Shown here piece after piece: positions 2,425 through 11,779 of a stretch of 64,000 bases of DNA (position 1 is its first letter; every line of letters begins with the position of its first letter). Source of the stretch: Streptomyces sp. NBC_00335 (GTDB lineage Bacteria; Actinomycetota; Actinomycetes; Streptomycetales; Streptomycetaceae); NCBI RefSeq assembly GCF_036127095.1, contig NZ_CP108006.1, positions 310,001-374,000 of the forward strand, in the 5' to 3' direction. The position numbers and the translations under genes are program-made. Under the pieces are notes generated by a model that had not been told where the DNA came from, searched no databases, and saw only the letters and a list, made by a program, of their open reading frames with translations.

Positions 2425-4443
2425 TCACCAGCGCAGGACGGCCCAGCCCCGGTGGGGCAGTTCGGGGTCCAGGCGCAGGGTGCGGTCCTGCCGTTCGGTG
2501 TCCGCCGGGCGGGGCTCGGCGAGGGGCGCCAGGACGGTGGCCGCGACCGCGACCGCGTCCGGGAGGGCGGGCAGGTGCACCGTCGGCCGGGCGGGGTCCT
2601 GGCAGCCGTTGGCCACGGTCAGGGTGGTGACTCCGTCCGCGTACGAGAGGTGCGGGATCAGGTACGGGCCGCCGCTGACCAGGGGGAGGCGGGGATCCTC
2701 CCCCTCCAGGAAGCGGACCGTGCGGTGCAGCAGCCGCTGCGCGTGGTCGTCGGCCGGCAGCGCGCGGGGGTCGGTCGCGGCGAGTACGGCGACGCGTCCG
2801 CCGAGGGCGTTGGTGAAGACGGTGCGGCCCGCCCCCCAGGCGCGGCCGTCCGGGGTGCGGACCTCGCTCCACCGCAGGGCCCCGGGTGCCTCCCGGAGCC
2901 GGGCCAGGGCGGGTTGGGTGTTGACGCTGAGGAGGAGGCCCGCGAGGTCCCCGCCCGCTGCGGCGCACAGCTGCTCGGTGGCGTACGGGCCCGGTCCCCC
3001 GACGGTGGCGGCCGGGGCCTCCCGGTCCACCGGATCGGCCGCGGCCAGCCCGATGAGGGGGCCGAAGCCGCGCCGGTGCAGGATCGTCGCGGCGGTCCCG
3101 TCGAGCAGCAGCCCTCCGGCCAGCAGGGCCCGTACCGCCTGATCGTCGAAGGCCCAGGCCGCGGGGCCGAACAGGGCCTGGACCGGAGCCGGTTCGGCCG
3201 TGACGGGCACTCCGTAGCGCAGCAGGAAATCGGCCGCCGGGCCCGGGTCCACGGCCAGCTCGCCCAAGCCCGCGCCGTGCGCCCGTACGTGGGCGGCGGC
3301 GTCCTGGGCGAAGGGCAGGCCGACGCCCAGGGTGCGCTGTCCGCGCGGATGCTGCCGGCGGACGTGGTCCAGGGCGGGCCGGGCGCGGCGCAGCAGTTCG
3401 GCGATCCGGGGGTGGCGGCCGGGGCTCGCTCCGTGCAGGGGGTACAGGTTGAGCAGGAGGGCGTCGGCCCCGGAGAGCTGGGCGGCGACCATCTCGGACC
3501 AGGTCTGGACATCGGATTTGGACCAGGCGGTGTGCGGCCAGTTCTCGATCTCCGGCTCGCTGTCCACGAACTCGGGCCGCAGGGAGCGCTGGAGTTCCGG
3601 CATCCACAGCTGCCGGGCGAGTTCGCGTCCGGGGGCGTCGGCGTACGGGGCGAAGTGCGGGCGGTGCGCGGCGCGGCCCCCGGGGGCCAGGGCCCCGAAG
3701 AGCGCGCCCCAGTCCCGGCCCTCCACGGAGGCGGCGTCCAGGCCCGAGCTCATCAGCCCGGTCCGGGAGCGGCCGCCCGAGCGCCGGTGCACTTCGACGG
3801 CCACCTGCGCGGCCACCTCCTGCTGCGCGGTCCGCCAGACCCGTTGCCACAGGGCCCGGAGCGGGTGCGGGGGGCCGGGGGCGGTGAGTGCGGAGACGAG
3901 CTCCGGTCGGGGGACCGGGCGTCCGGCGAGGGCGGCCAGCCGGTCGAGCATGAGGGGTTCGAAACCGCCGCCCCAGCCGAGCGGGGCGTGGTTGTGGAAG
4001 CGGAAGTCGTCCTCCAGCCACAGGACGCGGAAGCCCAGCTCGGCGAAGCGTCCGTAGTGTCCGGTCAGCCAGGCGCGCCAGCGCGGGCAGGCGAAGGAGG
4101 CCTGGGACGTGGAGACTTCCCCGGCCGGGGACACCATCGGGGCGAAGCCGTGGGTGTCGGTGCGGCCCCGGTCGGCGTGGCCCGTGGTCACCCAGGGGTT
4201 GAGGCTCACGTCCAGGCCGGCGCCGAGGAGGACCTCTTGCGCGGTGGCCGCGGCCTCGTACCAGAGGTCCTCGTGGGGTCCGGTGAGATGCCCGGTGAAG
4301 TGCTCCTCGGCCCCGAGGAGCAGCACCACTTCCGCCACACCCGCGTCGGTGCAGGTCTTGGCCAGTTCGGCCGCCGTGGCCGCGACGGCGTCCGTGCCTT
4401 CGTACGGATGGATCTGGAACCGCAGGTGGTACCGGGCATTCAC
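2425..4443 (-). CDS. Uncharacterised glycoside-hydrolase-like protein
   Basis: A 672-residue soluble protein with no signal peptide or membrane segment. I do not recognise a named family. Several features suggest a TIM-barrel glycosidase of the GH42/GH-A type: an acidic strand-end motif WLEDDFRFHNH near residue 140, a second acidic motif SEPEIENWPHTAW near residue 295, and Trp/His-rich segments, with a beta-sandwich-like tail (HRGWAVLRW) at the C-terminus. Which acids are catalytic cannot be read from sequence alone. It is transcribed away from the ROK regulator at 4623 and precedes the GH101 gene. That context fits intracellular or surface processing of the O-glycan disaccharide or GalNAc, which is inference from neighbours only. 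Confidence 0.8.
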   Translation of the reverse strand: MNARYHLRFQIHPYEGTDAVAATAAELAKTCTDAGVAEVVLLLGAEEHFTGHLTGPHEDLWYEAAATAQEVLLGAGLDVSLNPWVTTGHADRGRTDTHGFAPMVSPAGEVSTSQASFACPRWRAWLTGHYGRFAELGFRVLWLEDDFRFHNHAPLGWGGGFEPLMLDRLAALAGRPVPRPELVSALTAPGPPHPLRALWQRVWRTAQQEVAAQVAVEVHRRSGGRSRTGLMSSGLDAASVEGRDWGALFGALAPGGRAAHRPHFAPYADAPGRELARQLWMPELQRSLRPEFVDSEPEIENWPHTAWSKSDVQTWSEMVAAQLSGADALLLNLYPLHGASPGRHPRIAELLRRARPALDHVRRQHPRGQRTLGVGLPFAQDAAAHVRAHGAGLGELAVDPGPAADFLLRYGVPVTAEPAPVQALFGPAAWAFDDQAVRALLAGGLLLDGTAATILHRRGFGPLIGLAAADPVDREAPAATVGGPGPYATEQLCAAAGGDLAGLLLSVNTQPALARLREAPGALRWSEVRTPDGRAWGAGRTVFTNALGGRVAVLAATDPRALPADDHAQRLLHRTVRFLEGEDPRLPLVSGGPYLIPHLSYADGVTTLTVANGCQDPARPTVHLPALPDAVAVAATVLAPLAEPRPADTERQDRTLRLDPELPHRGWAVLRW

Positions 4444-4622: not shown

Positions 4623-5939
4623 GTGAGGACTGATCCACGAAGCACGCAGCGCAGCGACGACGGGGGCGGGCGGGGTGACGCCGGCATCGGACCCGTCGTG
4701 ATCAACGGCCCGGCCAGGCCGGCCGGGAGGGCCTCCATCCGCCGCGCCAACCTCGGTCTCGTACTGCGCCTCCTGCGCGACGCCGGACCGCGCTCACGCG
4801 CGCGGATCGCCGATGACGCGGGGCTGCCGAGGCCCACGGTCACCGGGCTGGTCACCGAGCTCATCGAGCTCGGCCTGGTGTGCGAGGGGGACGCGGAACG
4901 GGACGGCTCGGTGGGCCGCCCGGGCCAGAGCGTCCGGATCGACGGGCGCGCCCTGTGCGGGATCGGCCTGGAGATCAACGTCGACTACCTGGCCGCCGTT
5001 GCCCTCACCCTGGGCGGGGACACCGTCTTCGAACGGCGGGTCGCCATGGACGTCCGCGGCGCCGGACCCGAGGCCGTCCTGGACTGCGCCGCCGAGCTGG
5101 TCCGTGAGGCCCTCGGCGTCCTCGACGCCGCCGCGATCGCCACGGCCGGGGTCACCGTCGCCGCCCCCGGGGTCGTCGACATCGCCGCGGGCACCGTCGT
5201 CTACGCCGCGAACATCGACTGGCACGACGTGGAGGCGGTCAGCGGGATCCGCGCCCGCCTGGGGCGCGGGGCTCCCCCGCTGCGCCTGGAGAACGACGCC
5301 AAACTCGGCGCGGTGGCGGAGTACTTGGAGGCCTCCGCGGCCGGCATCCACGACCTGATCTACGTCACCGGCGAGACGGGCGTGGGCGGCGGCATCATCA
5401 GCGGTGGCCGCCTCCACCGCGGCGCCGCCGGCTTCGCCGGGGAGATCGGCCACATGCCGCTCGACCCGGGCGGCGCGCTCTGCGCCTGCGGGCGCCGGGG
5501 CTGCTGGGAGACCATGGTCGGCCTCACGGCCCTGCTGCGGCACGCCGCCGCCCCCGAGGATCCCGTACACGACCCCTCCCTCGACCTGGAGGCGCGGCTC
5601 ACGGACCTCCAGGCACGGGCGGCCGCCGGGGACGCCCGCACCCTGGAGGCCCTGGACCGGGTCGCGGACGGGCTCGGCCTCGGGCTGGCACTGCTGGCGG
5701 ACGTCCTGAACCCGCGCGCGGTCGTGCTCGGCGGGTACTTCACCTACTTCGGCGACCGGCTCGCCCCGCGGGTGGAGCGGCTGATGGCCGAACGCGTGAT
5801 GGCCCCGGACACGGGCGGCTGCCGTCTCCTGCTGTCCACCCTCGGCTTCACCGCCCCGGCCCGCGGCGGTGCGCTGCTGGCCCTCGACCCGGTGTACGAG
5901 GACCCGGCGCAGACCGTGGCGACGGCCACGGGGGCCTGA
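4623..5939 (+). CDS. ROK-family transcriptional regulator
   Basis: A 438-residue ROK (repressor, ORF, kinase) protein. It starts at GTG 4623, five bases after GAGGAG. An N-terminal winged helix-turn-helix spans about residues 35-90 (RRANLGLVLRLLRDAGPRSRARIADDAGLPRPTVTGLVTELIELGLV). The sugar-kinase-like domain follows, with the ENDAKLGAVAEY and GVGGGIISGG motifs and the ROK zinc/sugar motif GHMPLDPGG-CACGRRGCWE near residue 290. The HTH makes this a regulator rather than a glucokinase. It is divergent from the glycosidase-like/GH101 pair, with an AT-rich candidate operator between them, so it probably represses those genes until a sugar (GalNAc or Gal-beta-1,3-GalNAc would fit) is present. 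Confidence 0.93.
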   Translation: MRTDPRSTQRSDDGGGRGDAGIGPVVINGPARPAGRASIRRANLGLVLRLLRDAGPRSRARIADDAGLPRPTVTGLVTELIELGLVCEGDAERDGSVGRPGQSVRIDGRALCGIGLEINVDYLAAVALTLGGDTVFERRVAMDVRGAGPEAVLDCAAELVREALGVLDAAAIATAGVTVAAPGVVDIAAGTVVYAANIDWHDVEAVSGIRARLGRGAPPLRLENDAKLGAVAEYLEASAAGIHDLIYVTGETGVGGGIISGGRLHRGAAGFAGEIGHMPLDPGGALCACGRRGCWETMVGLTALLRHAAAPEDPVHDPSLDLEARLTDLQARAAAGDARTLEALDRVADGLGLGLALLADVLNPRAVVLGGYFTYFGDRLAPRVERLMAERVMAPDTGGCRLLLSTLGFTAPARGGALLALDPVYEDPAQTVATATGA

Positions 5940-6806: not shown

Positions 6807-6822
6807 ACAGGTCTGGACCATA
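6807..6822. promoter_or_regulatory. DasR-box-like palindrome 1
   Basis: Reads ACAGGTCTGGACCATA and contains the palindrome GGTCTGGACC. It agrees at 11 of 16 positions with the Streptomyces dre consensus AGTGGTCTAGACCACT bound by the GlcNAc-responsive GntR regulator DasR. It is about 120 bp upstream of the GT2 start. Confidence 0.45.
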
Positions 6823-6873: not shown

Positions 6874-6889
6874 ATTGGTCTATACCTTT
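6874..6889. promoter_or_regulatory. DasR-box-like palindrome 2
   Basis: Reads ATTGGTCTATACCTTT, 12 of 16 positions matching the dre consensus, and lies 52 bp upstream of the GT2 start. A second dre-like site in the same intergenic region strengthens both calls. Other HutC-type GntR proteins use similar TGGTCTA/TAGACCA half-sites. Confidence 0.5.
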
Positions 6890-6941: not shown

Positions 6942-8678
6942 ATGACCTTGTCTCACCTTCCGCAACCTCCTTCCGACGAAGAGCTCTACTGGTACTTCGG
7001 CCCGCAACGGCGCTGGGTCCTGATCAGCACCAGCCTCGCCTTCGTCTTCACCGCCGCGACCATGTTCACCTTCGCGCTGCGCACCCCGGCCCTGTGGGCC
7101 TTCCTCGCCGTCCTGGGGCTCAACCTGGTGGCCCTCGTGCTCTCCTCGGTGAACAGCCTGCGCCAGCGCAGGCTGACCCGGCCCTCCCACGAGGTGCTCG
7201 TACGCGCCTGGCAGCCCGCCCGACTGCCGGGAGTGGACCTCTACTTGCCGACCTGCGGGGAGCCGCTCGCCATCCTGGACAACGCCTACCGCGCGGTCTC
7301 GGCCGTCGACTGGCCCGGCTCACTCACCACTTGGGTCCTGGACGACGCCGACCGGCCCGAAGTCGCCGCACTGGCGGCCTCGTACGGGTACGAGTACGTC
7401 GTACGGCCCGACCGGGGACACCTGAAGAAGGCCGGGAACCTCAATCACGCACTGACCCTGAGCAGTGCCGAGTTCATCGCCATCCTCGACGCCGACTTCG
7501 CACCCCGGCCGGACTTCCTGCGCCATCTCGTGCCCTATCTGGCCGACCCGGGCGTCGGGATCGTGCAGAGCCCGCAGTGCTTCGACACCGACGGCACCAT
7601 GGGCTGGGTCCAGCGGGCCGCGGGCTCCGCCCAGGAGTGGTTCTTCCGCTGGATCCAGCCCTCCCGCGACGCCAGCGACGCCGCCATCTGCTGCGGCAGC
7701 AACGCCGTCTACCGGCGCGCCGCCATCGACCTGGCCGGCGGCTTCGCCCGCCTCGACCACAGCGAGGACCTGTACACCGGCCTCGCCCTGCACGCCCAGG
7801 GGTTCCGCACCGTGTACGTGCCGGTGCTGGTCGCCAAGGGCACCTCCCCCGACGAGGTCACCTCCTTCGTCAACCAGCAGTACCGGTGGGCGATGGGCAA
7901 CCTCCACCTGCTCACCTCGCCCGTCCTGCGGGGCATGGGCGCGCCCTGGCGGATGCGGCTGTGCTTCTACGAGGGCATCGTCGGCTACCTGGCCGCCGCC
8001 GTGAACACCTTCGCGGCGCCGCTGCCGCCCCTGGTGATGATGTTCTGGTACCCGGACGACATCCGGCCCTGGCACGTGCTGCCGCTGCTCGCCCCGCTGT
8101 GGCTCTGGCACGTGCTGCTGCCGCGGATCAGCCGGACCCGCTGGCGGGTGGAAGTGATCCGGGCGAACGTCCTGACGAGCGTCGCCGCCGCCACCGCCTT
8201 CCTGCACACGCTGCGCGGCCGCAGCGCCGACTGGGTGCCCACCGGCACCCGGGGCCCCGCACGTTCCGGCGGGATGGCCCGCCGGGTGGTGGGCGTCTCG
8301 CTGATCTGGCTGGTCCTGTCCAACGGCGCGGCCGGGACGGGCCTGGCGCTGGCCGTGGCCCGCAACGGCTGGGAGCCCAACTGGGGTCTGCTCCTCTACT
8401 TCGTGGTGCAGTGCCAGATCAACGGCCCGCTGGTCCGCGACCTGATCGCCGAGCTGCGTCCGGGGACGCGCTCCGGGCGGGTGCGGACCGCCGCGGAGTC
8501 CGGCCCGGCTCCGGCCGGCGGCCGCCCGCGCAGCCTCGTACGGGCCTTCGCCGACCGCTCCCGCAGCGGCGTCCTGCCACGCCGCTGGCCCGAGACCCTC
8601 GCCGCCTCGGCGGTGCTCCTGCTCACCGGCCTGCTGGCATCCGGGTGGGTCAACCCCATGCTTCCCTGGCTGAGTTGA
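6942..8678 (+). CDS. Cellulose-synthase-like family 2 glycosyltransferase
   Basis: A 578-residue membrane synthase. The start at ATG 6942 has GAGGG five bases upstream; an earlier in-frame codon at 6888 lacks one. Two N-terminal membrane segments (residues about 24-67) are followed by a processive GT2 domain with DDAD (D134-D137), DAD (D183-D185), HSED (E275-D276) and QQYRW (Q312, R315, W316), the D,D,D,QxxRW signature of cellulose, curdlan and hyaluronan synthases. At least four more membrane spans follow from about residue 345. There is no PilZ domain, so no sign of c-di-GMP control within the chain. It would polymerise a beta-linked glycan at the membrane and export it. Fourteen bases separate it from the acyltransferase-GH16 fusion. 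The GH16 partner makes a beta-1,3 or mixed-linkage glucan plausible, but the polymer is not determined by sequence. Confidence 0.9.
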   Translation: MTLSHLPQPPSDEELYWYFGPQRRWVLISTSLAFVFTAATMFTFALRTPALWAFLAVLGLNLVALVLSSVNSLRQRRLTRPSHEVLVRAWQPARLPGVDLYLPTCGEPLAILDNAYRAVSAVDWPGSLTTWVLDDADRPEVAALAASYGYEYVVRPDRGHLKKAGNLNHALTLSSAEFIAILDADFAPRPDFLRHLVPYLADPGVGIVQSPQCFDTDGTMGWVQRAAGSAQEWFFRWIQPSRDASDAAICCGSNAVYRRAAIDLAGGFARLDHSEDLYTGLALHAQGFRTVYVPVLVAKGTSPDEVTSFVNQQYRWAMGNLHLLTSPVLRGMGAPWRMRLCFYEGIVGYLAAAVNTFAAPLPPLVMMFWYPDDIRPWHVLPLLAPLWLWHVLLPRISRTRWRVEVIRANVLTSVAAATAFLHTLRGRSADWVPTGTRGPARSGGMARRVVGVSLIWLVLSNGAAGTGLALAVARNGWEPNWGLLLYFVVQCQINGPLVRDLIAELRPGTRSGRVRTAAESGPAPAGGRPRSLVRAFADRSRSGVLPRRWPETLAASAVLLLTGLLASGWVNPMLPWLS

Positions 8679-8692
8679 AAGGCTCCACCTCC

Positions 8693-11600
8693 ATGCACTC
8701 CCCCGCACCACCTCCCTCACCCTCCCCCGCGCCGTCTCCCGCGCCGGCCACGCCGACGCCCGACGCACGGCACGACCCACCGCGCGCCGAGCCACCGCGC
8801 GACGCCGCCCCGCCGACCGGCCCCCCGGGCGCCCCGGCCCGCTCCGGCGGCGAGTCCGGGCCCAGCCCGCACCGCTCGGCGTTCCGGCCCGACATCGAGG
8901 GGCTGCGCGCCGTCGCCGTCCTCGCGGTCCTCGCCTTCCACGCCGGGGTTCCGGGTCTCGCGGGCGGATTCGTCGGCGTGGACGTCTTCTTCGTCGTGTC
9001 CGGCTACCTCATCACCGGCCTGCTCGTCCGTGAGGCGATCACCACCGGCCGGATCCGGCTTCTGGACTTCTTCTCCCGGCGGGCCCGTCGGCTCCTGCCC
9101 TCCGCCGCCGTCGTCCTCGGCGCGGTGGCCCTGGCCGGGGCCTGGCTGACCGTTCCGCTGCGGCGCGCCGACCTGGAGTACGACGTGGTCGTGGCGGCGC
9201 TCTCCGCCGCCAACTGGCGCTTCGTCGCGCAGCGGACCGACTACCTCGCCGCCGGGCAGGAGCAGAGCCCGCTGCTGCACTTCTGGTCCCTCGCTGTCGA
9301 GGAGCAGTTCTATCTCCTCTGGGCGCCGCTGCTCGCCCTGATCGTGCTCGGCACGGTACGGGCCGTGCGCCGTGGACGCGCCGTGCGCTCCGCCGTCGCC
9401 CTGGCGGCCGTACCGCTGGTACTCGCGTCGTTCGCGCTGTCGCTGCGCTGGACGGACCACTCCCCCTCCCTCGCCTACCTCGCCACGCCCTCGCGGGTCT
9501 GGCAGTTCGGGGCCGGGGCTCTGGTGGCCCTGCTGCCCTGGCACCTCATGCGCGGCCCGCGCCCGCTGCGGCTGCTGTGCGGCTGGGCCGGGGGTGCGGC
9601 GATCGTCTGGAGCGTCTTCGCGTACGACGCGGCCACGCCCTACCCCGGCCACGCGGCCCTGGTGCCGACCCTGGGTGCGGCAGCCGTGATCCTCGCCGCG
9701 ATACCCGGCCGGGGCGAGCGCAGCACACCGGGGATCTACGGGATCGGCCGGCTCCTCGCCGGGCGCGGTCCCCGGGCGGTGGGGCGGCTCTCCTACAACC
9801 TGTACCTGTGGCACTGGCCGGTGCTCGTCTTCGCCGAGGCCCGCTTCGGCACGCAGGACTGGCCGGTGAAGGCCGCGCTCACCCTGGGCGCCGTCCTCCC
9901 CGCCTACGCGACCATGCGCTGGGTCGAGCAGCCGCTGCGCCGCAGCCGTACCGTCTCCGAACTCCCGCGCCGCGGGCTGTCGGTGGGCATCACGGCCGTG
10001 GTCATGCCGGTGCTCCTCGCGCTCGTGGTGGGCACCACGACGCTGAACCTGCTGGGTCCGGCAACGCCCGTCCAGATGGGCGGGCTGCCGCCGGGCGCCG
10101 CTTCCGGCCCGCACCTGCTCGCCCGTACGGGCTCCGCGCCGCTGGAGGCCGGTCCGGTCGTACCCGGCCCGGCGCAGGCGCGGGGGGACTTCCCGCCGGA
10201 CGGGGAGTGCGAGGTGGCCCCGGCCGTGACGCGCAGCCCGGACTGCCTGTTCGGCGCGGTGGACAGCCCGGACCGGATCGTGCTGCTCGGCGATTCGCAC
10301 GCCGGCCAGTGGTTCTCGGCGATGCTGGCCATGGCCGCGCAACGGGGCTGGGCACTGCAGGAGTTGGTCAAGCAGGGCTGCCCACTGCCGCAGCTTGCGG
10401 TGGACAGTCCCCAACTCGGCCGCGCCTACCGGGAGTGCGACACCTGGCGCGCCGACACCCTGGAGCGGCTGCGGGAGCAGCCGAAGCCCCGGCTCATCGT
10501 GATCTCCTCGCTCAACCGCTACACCTCCGATTCCGGACTCCTCGCCGAGGGCTGGGAGAAGACCCTCGAACCCCTGCGGGCGATCGGTGCGCCGATCGTC
10601 TACATCGAGGACACCCCCGTACCGGGTACGGACGTCCCCGCGTGCGTGTCCGGCAGCCCCGAGGAGCCCGCCGCCTGCGCGTTCAGCCGTACGCAGGCCC
10701 GGCAGCCCGATCCGCTGGCCCGGCTGATCGCCTCCGGCGCCCTGCCCGGCGTACGCGCCGTGAGCGTGAATCCGGTCCTGTGCCCGGGTGACGGGCCGAC
10801 GTGCCCGGCCGTACTGGACCGCATCCTGCTCTACCGGGACGACGCCCACCTGACCAACGTGGCGGTCGTCGTACTGACCCCCCGGCTGGAACGGCTGCTC
10901 ACGGATTCCGGGGCGCTGCCCGCCGTGGGCGCAGCGGCTTCCGCGGCCGGGGAGGCCCGCTCGGCGGGGTGGACCGAGGTGTTCCGCGACGAGTTCGACG
11001 GCCCCGCGGGAAGCCCGCCGTCCGCCGCCAACTGGCTGCACGACATCGGAACTTGCTACCCGGGCTGCCCCGCGGCCCAGTGGGGCACGGGTGAGATCGA
11101 GACGATGACCGACTCGACCGACAACGTCCGCCTCGACGGCAAGGGCGCACTGGAGATCGTCCCCACCCGTACGGACGACGGCGCGTGGAGCTCGGGCCGC
11201 ATCGAAACCCGGCGCGCCGACTTCGCGGCCCCGCCCGGCGGAACCCTGCGGATCGAGGCGGCGATCGCCCTGCCCGGGGTGACCGGCGCCAAGGCGGCGG
11301 GTTACTGGCCGGCGTTCTGGACCCTCGGGGCGCCGCTGCGCGACGGGTACACGGGCTGGCCGGGCGTCGGGGAGCTCGACATCATGGAATCGGTCAACGG
11401 CCGGGACAGCGTCTTCGCCACCATGCACTGCGGCACCCTCGAAGGCGGCCCGTGCCGGGAACCGGCGGGCCTGAGCTCGGGCCCCCAGCCGTGCGGGGAC
11501 TGCCGTACGGGCTTCCACACGTACGCCGTCGAGGTCGACCTCTCCCCCGGGGCCGAGGAGGTGCGCTGGTACCTGGACGGCCGGGTGCACCACCGGGTGG

Positions 11601-11779
11601 CGGCCTCCCGGATGGACCCGGACACGTGGAAGCGGGCGGTGGACCACGGCCTGTTCCTGATCCTCAACGTGGCCATCGGCGGCGGCCTCCCCCTGGCCGA
11701 CGGCGCGACCCCGGGCCCGGACACCGAACCGGGCCACCCGATGCGGGTCGACCGGGTGACCGTTTCCACGCGGCGGTGA
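8693..11779 (+). CDS. Acyltransferase-3 / SGNH / GH16 three-domain fusion protein
   Basis: A 1028-residue single chain. Residues 1-60 are a Pro/Ala-rich cytosolic leader. Residues about 65-440 form an OafA-type acyltransferase-3 with ten or so membrane spans: FRPDIEGLRAVAVLAVLAFHAG with His83, FFVVSGYLITG, and LLHFWSLAVEEQFYLLW. Residues about 500-760 are an exported SGNH domain: GDSH (D534-S535) and DDAHL (D716, H719). From about 764 to the end is a GH16 glycanase, with TEVFRDEFDG and the catalytic ELDIMES motif (E894, D896, E899). Acyltransferase-SGNH fusions that O-acetylate surface polymers are common; a GH16 glucanase added to the same chain is unusual. Co-transcribed with the GT2, it could acetylate and trim the nascent polymer on the outer face of the membrane. 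The frame is uninterrupted, so this is not an assembly join. Confidence 0.92.
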   Translation: MHSPAPPPSPSPAPSPAPATPTPDARHDPPRAEPPRDAAPPTGPPGAPARSGGESGPSPHRSAFRPDIEGLRAVAVLAVLAFHAGVPGLAGGFVGVDVFFVVSGYLITGLLVREAITTGRIRLLDFFSRRARRLLPSAAVVLGAVALAGAWLTVPLRRADLEYDVVVAALSAANWRFVAQRTDYLAAGQEQSPLLHFWSLAVEEQFYLLWAPLLALIVLGTVRAVRRGRAVRSAVALAAVPLVLASFALSLRWTDHSPSLAYLATPSRVWQFGAGALVALLPWHLMRGPRPLRLLCGWAGGAAIVWSVFAYDAATPYPGHAALVPTLGAAAVILAAIPGRGERSTPGIYGIGRLLAGRGPRAVGRLSYNLYLWHWPVLVFAEARFGTQDWPVKAALTLGAVLPAYATMRWVEQPLRRSRTVSELPRRGLSVGITAVVMPVLLALVVGTTTLNLLGPATPVQMGGLPPGAASGPHLLARTGSAPLEAGPVVPGPAQARGDFPPDGECEVAPAVTRSPDCLFGAVDSPDRIVLLGDSHAGQWFSAMLAMAAQRGWALQELVKQGCPLPQLAVDSPQLGRAYRECDTWRADTLERLREQPKPRLIVISSLNRYTSDSGLLAEGWEKTLEPLRAIGAPIVYIEDTPVPGTDVPACVSGSPEEPAACAFSRTQARQPDPLARLIASGALPGVRAVSVNPVLCPGDGPTCPAVLDRILLYRDDAHLTNVAVVVLTPRLERLLTDSGALPAVGAAASAAGEARSAGWTEVFRDEFDGPAGSPPSAANWLHDIGTCYPGCPAAQWGTGEIETMTDSTDNVRLDGKGALEIVPTRTDDGAWSSGRIETRRADFAAPPGGTLRIEAAIALPGVTGAKAAGYWPAFWTLGAPLRDGYTGWPGVGELDIMESVNGRDSVFATMHCGTLEGGPCREPAGLSSGPQPCGDCRTGFHTYAVEVDLSPGAEEVRWYLDGRVHHRVAASRMDPDTWKRAVDHGLFLILNVAIGGGLPLADGATPGPDTEPGHPMRVDRVTVSTRR

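Follow-up and report, generated by a model that had tools for sequence, protein, structure and literature searches.

A cellulose-synthase-like GT2 and a single-chain AT3-SGNH-GH16 protein in Streptomyces sp. NBC_00335: a putative DasR-controlled module for an acylated beta-glucan

The window analysed here, a 64,000-nucleotide stretch of Streptomyces sp. NBC_00335 (C1:310001-374000 of the 9.0-Mb genome), contains a gene pair made up of a polymer synthase of glycosyltransferase family 2 (GT2) and a protein in which an acyltransferase-3 (AT3) domain, an SGNH domain and a glycoside hydrolase family 16 (GH16) domain follow each other in a single open reading frame (ORF), with putative operators of the regulator DasR in front of the pair (Table 1). 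The GT2 stop and the start of the fusion ORF are separated by 14 bp. The AT3 and SGNH domains score 95.8 and 106.6 bits, respectively, against Pfam cut-offs of 31 and 27. A preliminary description had read this locus as a GT2 gene followed by an in-frame AT3-SGNH-GH16 chain with an intact ExDxxE motif; both ORFs, all the domains and the motif, which reads GELDIMES, were found.

Table 1. Positions of the gene pair, its domains and the operator-like sites in the window.
Feature	Positions	Strand	Details
DasR/NagR-type operator core	6876..6887	+	TGGTCTATACCT; 66 bp upstream of GT2 start
Second, weaker DasR-type operator-like site	6810..6820	-	GGTCTGGACCA on + strand; one mismatch to TGGTCTADACC
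GT2 polymer synthase, cellulose-synthase-like	6942..8678	+	ATG 6942; 578 aa; PF13632, E 1.3e-21
AT3-SGNH-GH16 fusion protein	8693..11779	+	ATG 8693; 1028 aa; single ORF
AT3 membrane domain	8891..9910	+	PF01757, E 3.4e-27
SGNH domain, probable final acyl-transfer step	10208..10891	+	PF19040, E 2.2e-30
GH16 endo-beta-1,3-glucanase-like domain with ExDxxE	10961..11767	+	3dgt, E 3e-96

In a comparison with solved structures, the GT2 matches BcsA chains (E 1.6e-39), and its motifs D, DxD, ED and QQYRW are invariant across nine aligned sequences, including that of the window. No PilZ domain was matched in it by Pfam. A true cellulose synthase (BcsA/CelA) is ruled out by the family cut-off, as the protein reaches 174.7 bits with the cellulose synthase equivalog TIGR03030, which requires 699.1.

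The AT3 residues checked are features taken from PMC7448272 and comprise R-X10-H in the first transmembrane helix (TMH1), GGFVGVD, RXXR, a serine in loop 3-4 and a glutamate after TMH10; they are kept in the 15 unbroken of 16 aligned loci, and the Ser-Asp-His triad of the SGNH domain is kept in all 16. The protein thus retains the checked residues whose mutation abolishes or strongly lowers the activity of OafA, and it has AT3 and SGNH on one chain as do OafA/OafB and OatA, as far as described in the available parts of PMC9558356 and PMC7448272. It differs from these proteins in the additional GH16 domain after SGNH and in the GT2 gene upstream, and the terms "glycoside hydrolase" and "glycosyl hydrolase" have no occurrence in the main texts of those two papers. 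A hydropathy scan of the AT3 part gave nine segments, two of them overlapping, against the eleven transmembrane helices that put SGNH on the outside in AT3-SGNH proteins. The nearest NCBIfam model is SucT, with 215.4 bits against a cut-off of 1275, a match so far under the cut-off that acetyl is not assured as the acyl group. The SGNH domain of AT3-SGNH proteins is presented in the parts of PMC9558356 and PMC7448272 at hand as essential for acyl transfer and probably its final step. The "acetylase-esterase" of the preliminary description would accordingly be one acylation machine rather than two activities, with the SGNH part probably better taken as a second acyl-transfer step than as an esterase; the acylation part of that label stands, the esterase part probably does not, and the acyl group need not be acetyl.

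The last 274 residues of the fusion match the solved endo-1,3-beta-glucanases 3dgt (residues 3-271 of the part searched) and 7eo3 (E 3.4e-85), which places the GH16 part near secreted Streptomyces endo-1,3-beta-glucanases, and the E, D and E of its motif are kept in the 15 unbroken of 16 aligned loci. With the Pfam GH16 model PF00722, the fusion stays under the gathering cut-off (14.1 bits vs 22, E 0.032), so an annotation pipeline could miss this part. No carbohydrate-binding module was matched in the Pfam search of the fusion protein. Fungal membrane-held GH16 enzymes crosslink glucans, and a weak match to the SKN1/KRE6 beta-glucan synthesis proteins (E 3.3e-05, under the cut-off) was also obtained, both of which would suit transglycosylation, with GH16 linking the acylated polymer to a different surface glycan instead of trimming it. 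This is an unlikely role, as the nearest solved relatives are named glucanases and no acceptor is known.

The fusion is present in 23 of 392 genomes of the genus (own genome included), with every frame having at least 991 residues, in three further genomes of a class survey and, by a GTDB contig scan, in five of the best 80 of 584 relatives, namely S. amritsarensis, three Kitasatospora and one Streptacidiphilus, in which the GH16 part was found. These make up 31 distinct fusion loci, whose pairwise DNA identity does not exceed 94.8% over at least 1.5 kb. In a set of 61 genus genomes (own genome included), seven others carry the GH16 part at 80-86% identity within a long open frame. AT3 to GH16 form one open frame in 30 of the 31 loci, codon-position GC is coding-like along the fusion ORF, junction included, and the median ratio of nonsynonymous to synonymous substitution rates (dN/dS, 66 pairs) lies at 0.20-0.28 for every domain of the pair (GT2 0.204, AT3 0.225, SGNH 0.281, GH16 0.216). 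A sequencing error is ruled out by the recurrence in 31 distinct loci, 30 of them with one open frame. The doubt raised in the preliminary description, that the fusion could be an artefact of two genes, is settled by the open frames, the GC pattern at the junction and the low dN/dS. One fusion locus (L036) is frame-broken, and genome G732 (L194, 10269-11879) retains SGNH-GH16 but neither AT3 nor GT2, probably as a remnant of the operon; it was left out of the 31 loci. Although these two cases would suit two genes joined by error or a decaying pseudogene, such an explanation has next to no probability given the open frames and the dN/dS in every domain.

The GT2 lies directly upstream of the fusion on the same strand in 31/31 loci (in L239 only the end of the GT2 is on the contig), which bears out the co-occurrence that the preliminary description had suggested counting. 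When ten genes of the window were compared with 12 loci, the GT2 and the fusion recurred in all of them; of the other eight, two recurred, both in L112. GT2 orthologues (85-91% identity) and the fusion have an identical distribution, in 8 of 61 genomes, with a chance value of 3.4e-10 that is merely illustrative because the genomes are related. In a control of 75 AT3-SGNH loci of other organisms (59 of them at least 14 kb long), a GH26 or GH6 match was obtained in four of the five with a GT2, two of which (L037 and L085) are the query genes themselves, and in none of the 70 without a GT2; GH16 was matched in none of the 75. The 31/31 adjacency, the shared 8/61 genomes and this control rule out a chance neighbourhood of GT2 and fusion.

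Outside the fusion loci, the class survey found the GT2 at E <= 1e-90 in 25 of 394 genomes. The 30 unfused GT2 loci comprise all 23 unfused matches of that survey, 4 of 10 divergent loci and 3 of the 5 control loci with a GT2 match (L037, L042 and L085; the other two, L084 and L091, were used neither in the tree nor among the 30). Within 6.5 kb of these GT2 genes there are 22 GH26, 4 GH16 and 1 GH6 matches, in 23 of 27 cases on the same strand, and AT3-SGNH lies within 4.5 kb in 12 of the 30. The queries for GH26 and GH6 were drawn from L037, L085, L168, L169, L173 and L174, so these loci match by construction.

Several relatives have the same functions in other arrangements. In a distant actinomycete (G533, L167), separate genes for GT2, AT3-SGNH and GH16 follow one another in the order of the fusion loci; this GH16 has 68% identity and passes PF00722 at 29.8 bits. 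In L168, GT2 and AT3-SGNH are accompanied by GH26, and in Kineosporia (L037) by GH6, whose gene lies on the opposite strand; for Gordonia desulfuricans (L042), the stretch examined shows only GT2 and AT3-SGNH. In Pengzhenrongella frigida (L085, 6228-10034), a single chain of 1268 aa combines GT2, AT3 and SGNH, and a GH26 gene lies upstream. These split, GT2-fused and GH26-bearing relatives point to a module of synthase, acylation and glycanase. In a quick tree, the separate GH16 of L167, flagged as a long branch, groups with the fused GH16 (support of 98 by the Shimodaira-Hasegawa-like approximate likelihood ratio test, SH-aLRT), and the sampled stand-alone GH16 fall outside the clade formed by the fused ones. 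A capture of GH16 unrelated to the synthase is ruled out by the single clade of L167 and fused GH16. The GT2 tree, rooted only at the midpoint, unites 16 fusion rows with L167, L168 and L042 in a single clade (100/99), within which L167 adjoins the fusions (100/99); all three unfused rows carry a long-branch flag. In this tree, the GT2 of S. amritsarensis sits among those of the genus of the window. The GH16 of L167 begins with a lipoprotein-like leader that is lipobox-like as judged by eye, which suggests that in the fusion the AT3 helices may have taken over from a lipid anchor. Two GH26 proteins were compared with solved structures; the nearest for both is endoglucanase H, whose GH26 domain is a lichenase, and mannanases score lower. 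The GH16, GH26 and GH6 partners jointly favour a beta-glucan-type product without proving it.

Two other arrangements were noted. In L180 (5626-9612), a 1328-aa frame holds AT3 and then two SGNH matches; GH16 and GH26 are matched downstream of it, and its start is overlapped by a GT2 match that contains two stops. L184, L186, L187, L188, L190 and L191 have a divergent GT2 and a GH26 match, a PMT-like match in five of the six and ribosomal or RNA polymerase genes, recognised by eye, next to the GT2, and look like another exopolysaccharide locus.

The promoter of the GT2 has DasR-type operator-like sites, which, like the GH26 and GH6 relatives, were missing from the preliminary description. The core at 6876 is the only exact match to TGGTCTADACC within the window. 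In the aligned promoters, TGGTCTATACC, which in the window stands 66 bp before the GT2 start, is strongly conserved; the three Kitasatospora have TGGTCTATACCA instead and Streptacidiphilus has TGGTCTAGACCA. The second site, AGGTCTGGACCA, about 66 bp further up, is present in 10 of 12 aligned Streptomyces promoters, with a variant (AGGTCTAAACCA) in L166 and none in L165. A search of the window with one mismatch allowed gave two matches, both in the GT2 promoter; at least two were also obtained in 15 of 100 shuffles, so the count is weak alone and it is the conservation that carries the claim. TGGTCTADACC precedes the GT2 in 30/30 fusion loci with the promoter in view and is found nowhere else on the stretches examined, and it is absent from all 102 other loci (1.66 Mb), a contrast of which a part may be lineage because the 102 are mostly other genera or other GT2 loci. 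With a looser score (9 of 12 bases), an operator-like site was also obtained in the unfused GT2 promoters of L037, L189 and L192, a score reached by 3, 4 and 10 of 60 shuffles, respectively.

In the own genome, TGGTCTADACCW occurs at eight places, one of them the GT2 promoter, against one for the backward-read control, and also precedes a nagB-like gene (PF01182), a gene for a GH19 chitinase with CBM5/12 and a gene for an AA10 lytic polysaccharide monooxygenase (LPMO), whose likely start is about 120 bp after the site. At another site (L199), a siderophore-type IucA/IucC gene ends on one side and a GntR gene lies on the other; the sites of L200 and L204 have no evident link to N-acetylglucosamine (GlcNAc). 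The remaining one of the eight, at position 1501 of L202, is the perfect palindrome TGGTCTAGACCA; it follows an unknown gene and immediately precedes one for a polysaccharide deacetylase, a possible DasR target. The same genome encodes DasR (4zs8, E 2.7e-141). The DasR consensus is given as A(G/C)TGGTCTAGACCA(G/C)T in the portion of PMC4398421 available, and two of its 12 central bases are different in the window core. NagR, which is related to DasR, is released by amino-sugar phosphates, according to the accessible text of PMC4333415. As judged from these sites, the GT2-fusion unit is apparently switched by an amino-sugar (chitin) signal via DasR.

The operator core shared with the GH19 chitinase and the LPMO, together with the closeness of the GH16 part to secreted Streptomyces endo-1,3-beta-glucanases, would also suit a weapon or a feeding enzyme tethered to the cell surface, directed at the beta-1,3-glucan of fungi and regulated together with chitinases, in which case GT2 and AT3-SGNH would serve another polymer such as a capsule. 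This is an outsider, if a slightly stronger one than the transglycosylase role: the GH16 is fused to an acyltransferase adjoining a synthase, relatives have GH26 or GH6 in place of GH16 near the same GT2, the fused clade is separate from the sampled stand-alone GH16, and a carbohydrate-binding module was not matched. The GlcNAc-type operator could also mean that the polymer consists of amino sugars, which would agree with DasR control, and that GH16 has been re-purposed. The GT2 does weakly resemble the NodC and PgaC models (61.9 and 22.3 bits), but it scores far higher with the cellulose synthase model (174.7 bits) and the neighbouring hydrolase families act on beta-glucans or mannans, which makes this improbable.

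Here it is proposed that the pair is a two-gene synthase-dependent exopolysaccharide module, with a beta-glucan GT2, acylation by AT3-SGNH, cutting by GH16 and repression by DasR, a reading drawn from sequence comparison to which a probability of about 0.58 is given; the product would most likely be an acylated beta-glucan. In this module, the GT2 would make and extrude a beta-glucan (beta-1,3 or mixed 1,3;1,4), the AT3 part would hand an acyl group (acetyl or succinyl) outward from cytoplasmic acyl-CoA, and the SGNH part would set it onto the emerging chain. The GH16 part, membrane-held through the AT3 helices, would cut or transglycosylate poorly acylated stretches, an action that would fix the length, release or attachment of the polymer. 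DasR would repress transcription by way of one or two operators upstream of the GT2, and GlcNAc-derived sugar phosphates would relieve this repression. More tentatively, and at somewhat below even odds, the locus may represent an undescribed class of DasR-controlled acylated beta-glucan of the Streptomycetaceae, in which one protein decorates and cuts, the acylation pattern sets the cut sites, and the chitin or amino-sugar signal behind both feeding and development switches the coat as well.

Some observations weigh against this proposal, among them the frame-broken L036 and the truncated L194. The linkage made by the synthase cannot be read off the GT2 because it is far under the cellulose synthase equivalog cut-off, and DasR control hints at a chitin-linked role that a glucan synthase does not predict. 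A hydropathy peak at residues 987-1005, taken as false, lies within the GH16 part. Among the unfused GT2 loci, three of 30 (L042, L181 and L182) have no GH match within 6.5 kb, in four of the 27 with a match the strand is the opposite one, and weak matches occur, such as that of L177 at 54 bits. Furthermore, since the linkage preferences of GH16, GH26 and GH6 differ and mannanases come after the lichenase-type structures in the GH26 comparison, the relatives may make different glycans.

Among known systems, the beta-glucan locus CslA-GlxA-CslZ of Streptomyces also combines an actinobacterial cellulose-synthase-like GT2 with an endoglucanase neighbour; it differs in its copper radical oxidase and GH6 and is not known to include an acyltransferase. 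PgaB of the poly-N-acetylglucosamine (PNAG) system removes acetyl rather than adding acyl, and its domains differ from those of the fusion. Its likeness lies in having polymer-modifying and glycoside hydrolase domains on one chain in a GT2-synthase operon, as described in the part of PMC5933820 available. Similarly, the clostridial ccsZABHI and Pseudomonas wss operons for acetylated cellulose have adjoining genes for a GT2 synthase, a hydrolase and O-acylation; however, these are separate genes with PatA/PatB- and alginate-type acylation proteins, ccs has a GH5 hydrolase and a PilZ-bearing synthase, and neither AT3-SGNH nor GH16 is present in the descriptions of ccs and wss, as far as the available portion of PMC7710045 goes. 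The (1,3;1,4)-beta-glucan synthases RiGT2 and BgsA are GT2 with D, D, D and QXXRW, BgsA being without PilZ like the GT2 of the window and RiGT2 having it, and no AT3-SGNH or GH16 partner appears in their descriptions in the accessible part of PMC10374906. The adjoining synthase, hydrolase and O-acylation genes are therefore a known theme, and what is unusual is the single-chain AT3-SGNH-GH16 and the apparent control. In the open literature searched, no description was found of the AT3-SGNH-GH16 architecture or of a GT2-coupled DasR-linked system. The suggestion of an undescribed system in the preliminary description thus holds for the architecture and not for the gene-set theme, already known from ccsZABHI; its acetylated beta-glucan survives as a best guess for the beta-glucan type, from the hydrolase partners, with acetyl left unassured.

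Few Streptomyces surface polymers have, to our knowledge, been assigned to genes, and this locus offers a compact two-gene handle that should lend itself readily to deletion or expression, with a predicted product class and a predicted switch (GlcNAc through DasR). The natural series of relatives (split, fused, with GH26 or with GH6) makes the coupling between acylation and cutting testable, and a single-chain acyltransferase-glycanase could serve as a tool for acylated glucans of set length.

No tRNA was found by a tRNA scan. Between 6700 and 12200, a search for promoters and terminators returned no sigma-70 promoter; two weak terminator-like sites came up, both inside the ORF. Elsewhere in the window, a 672-aa protein without Pfam or NCBIfam match is encoded at 2425-4443 on the minus strand, and beside it, at 4623-5939 on the plus strand, there is a ROK-family regulator (PF00480, E 5.3e-49), the two being possibly a sugar-related pair.

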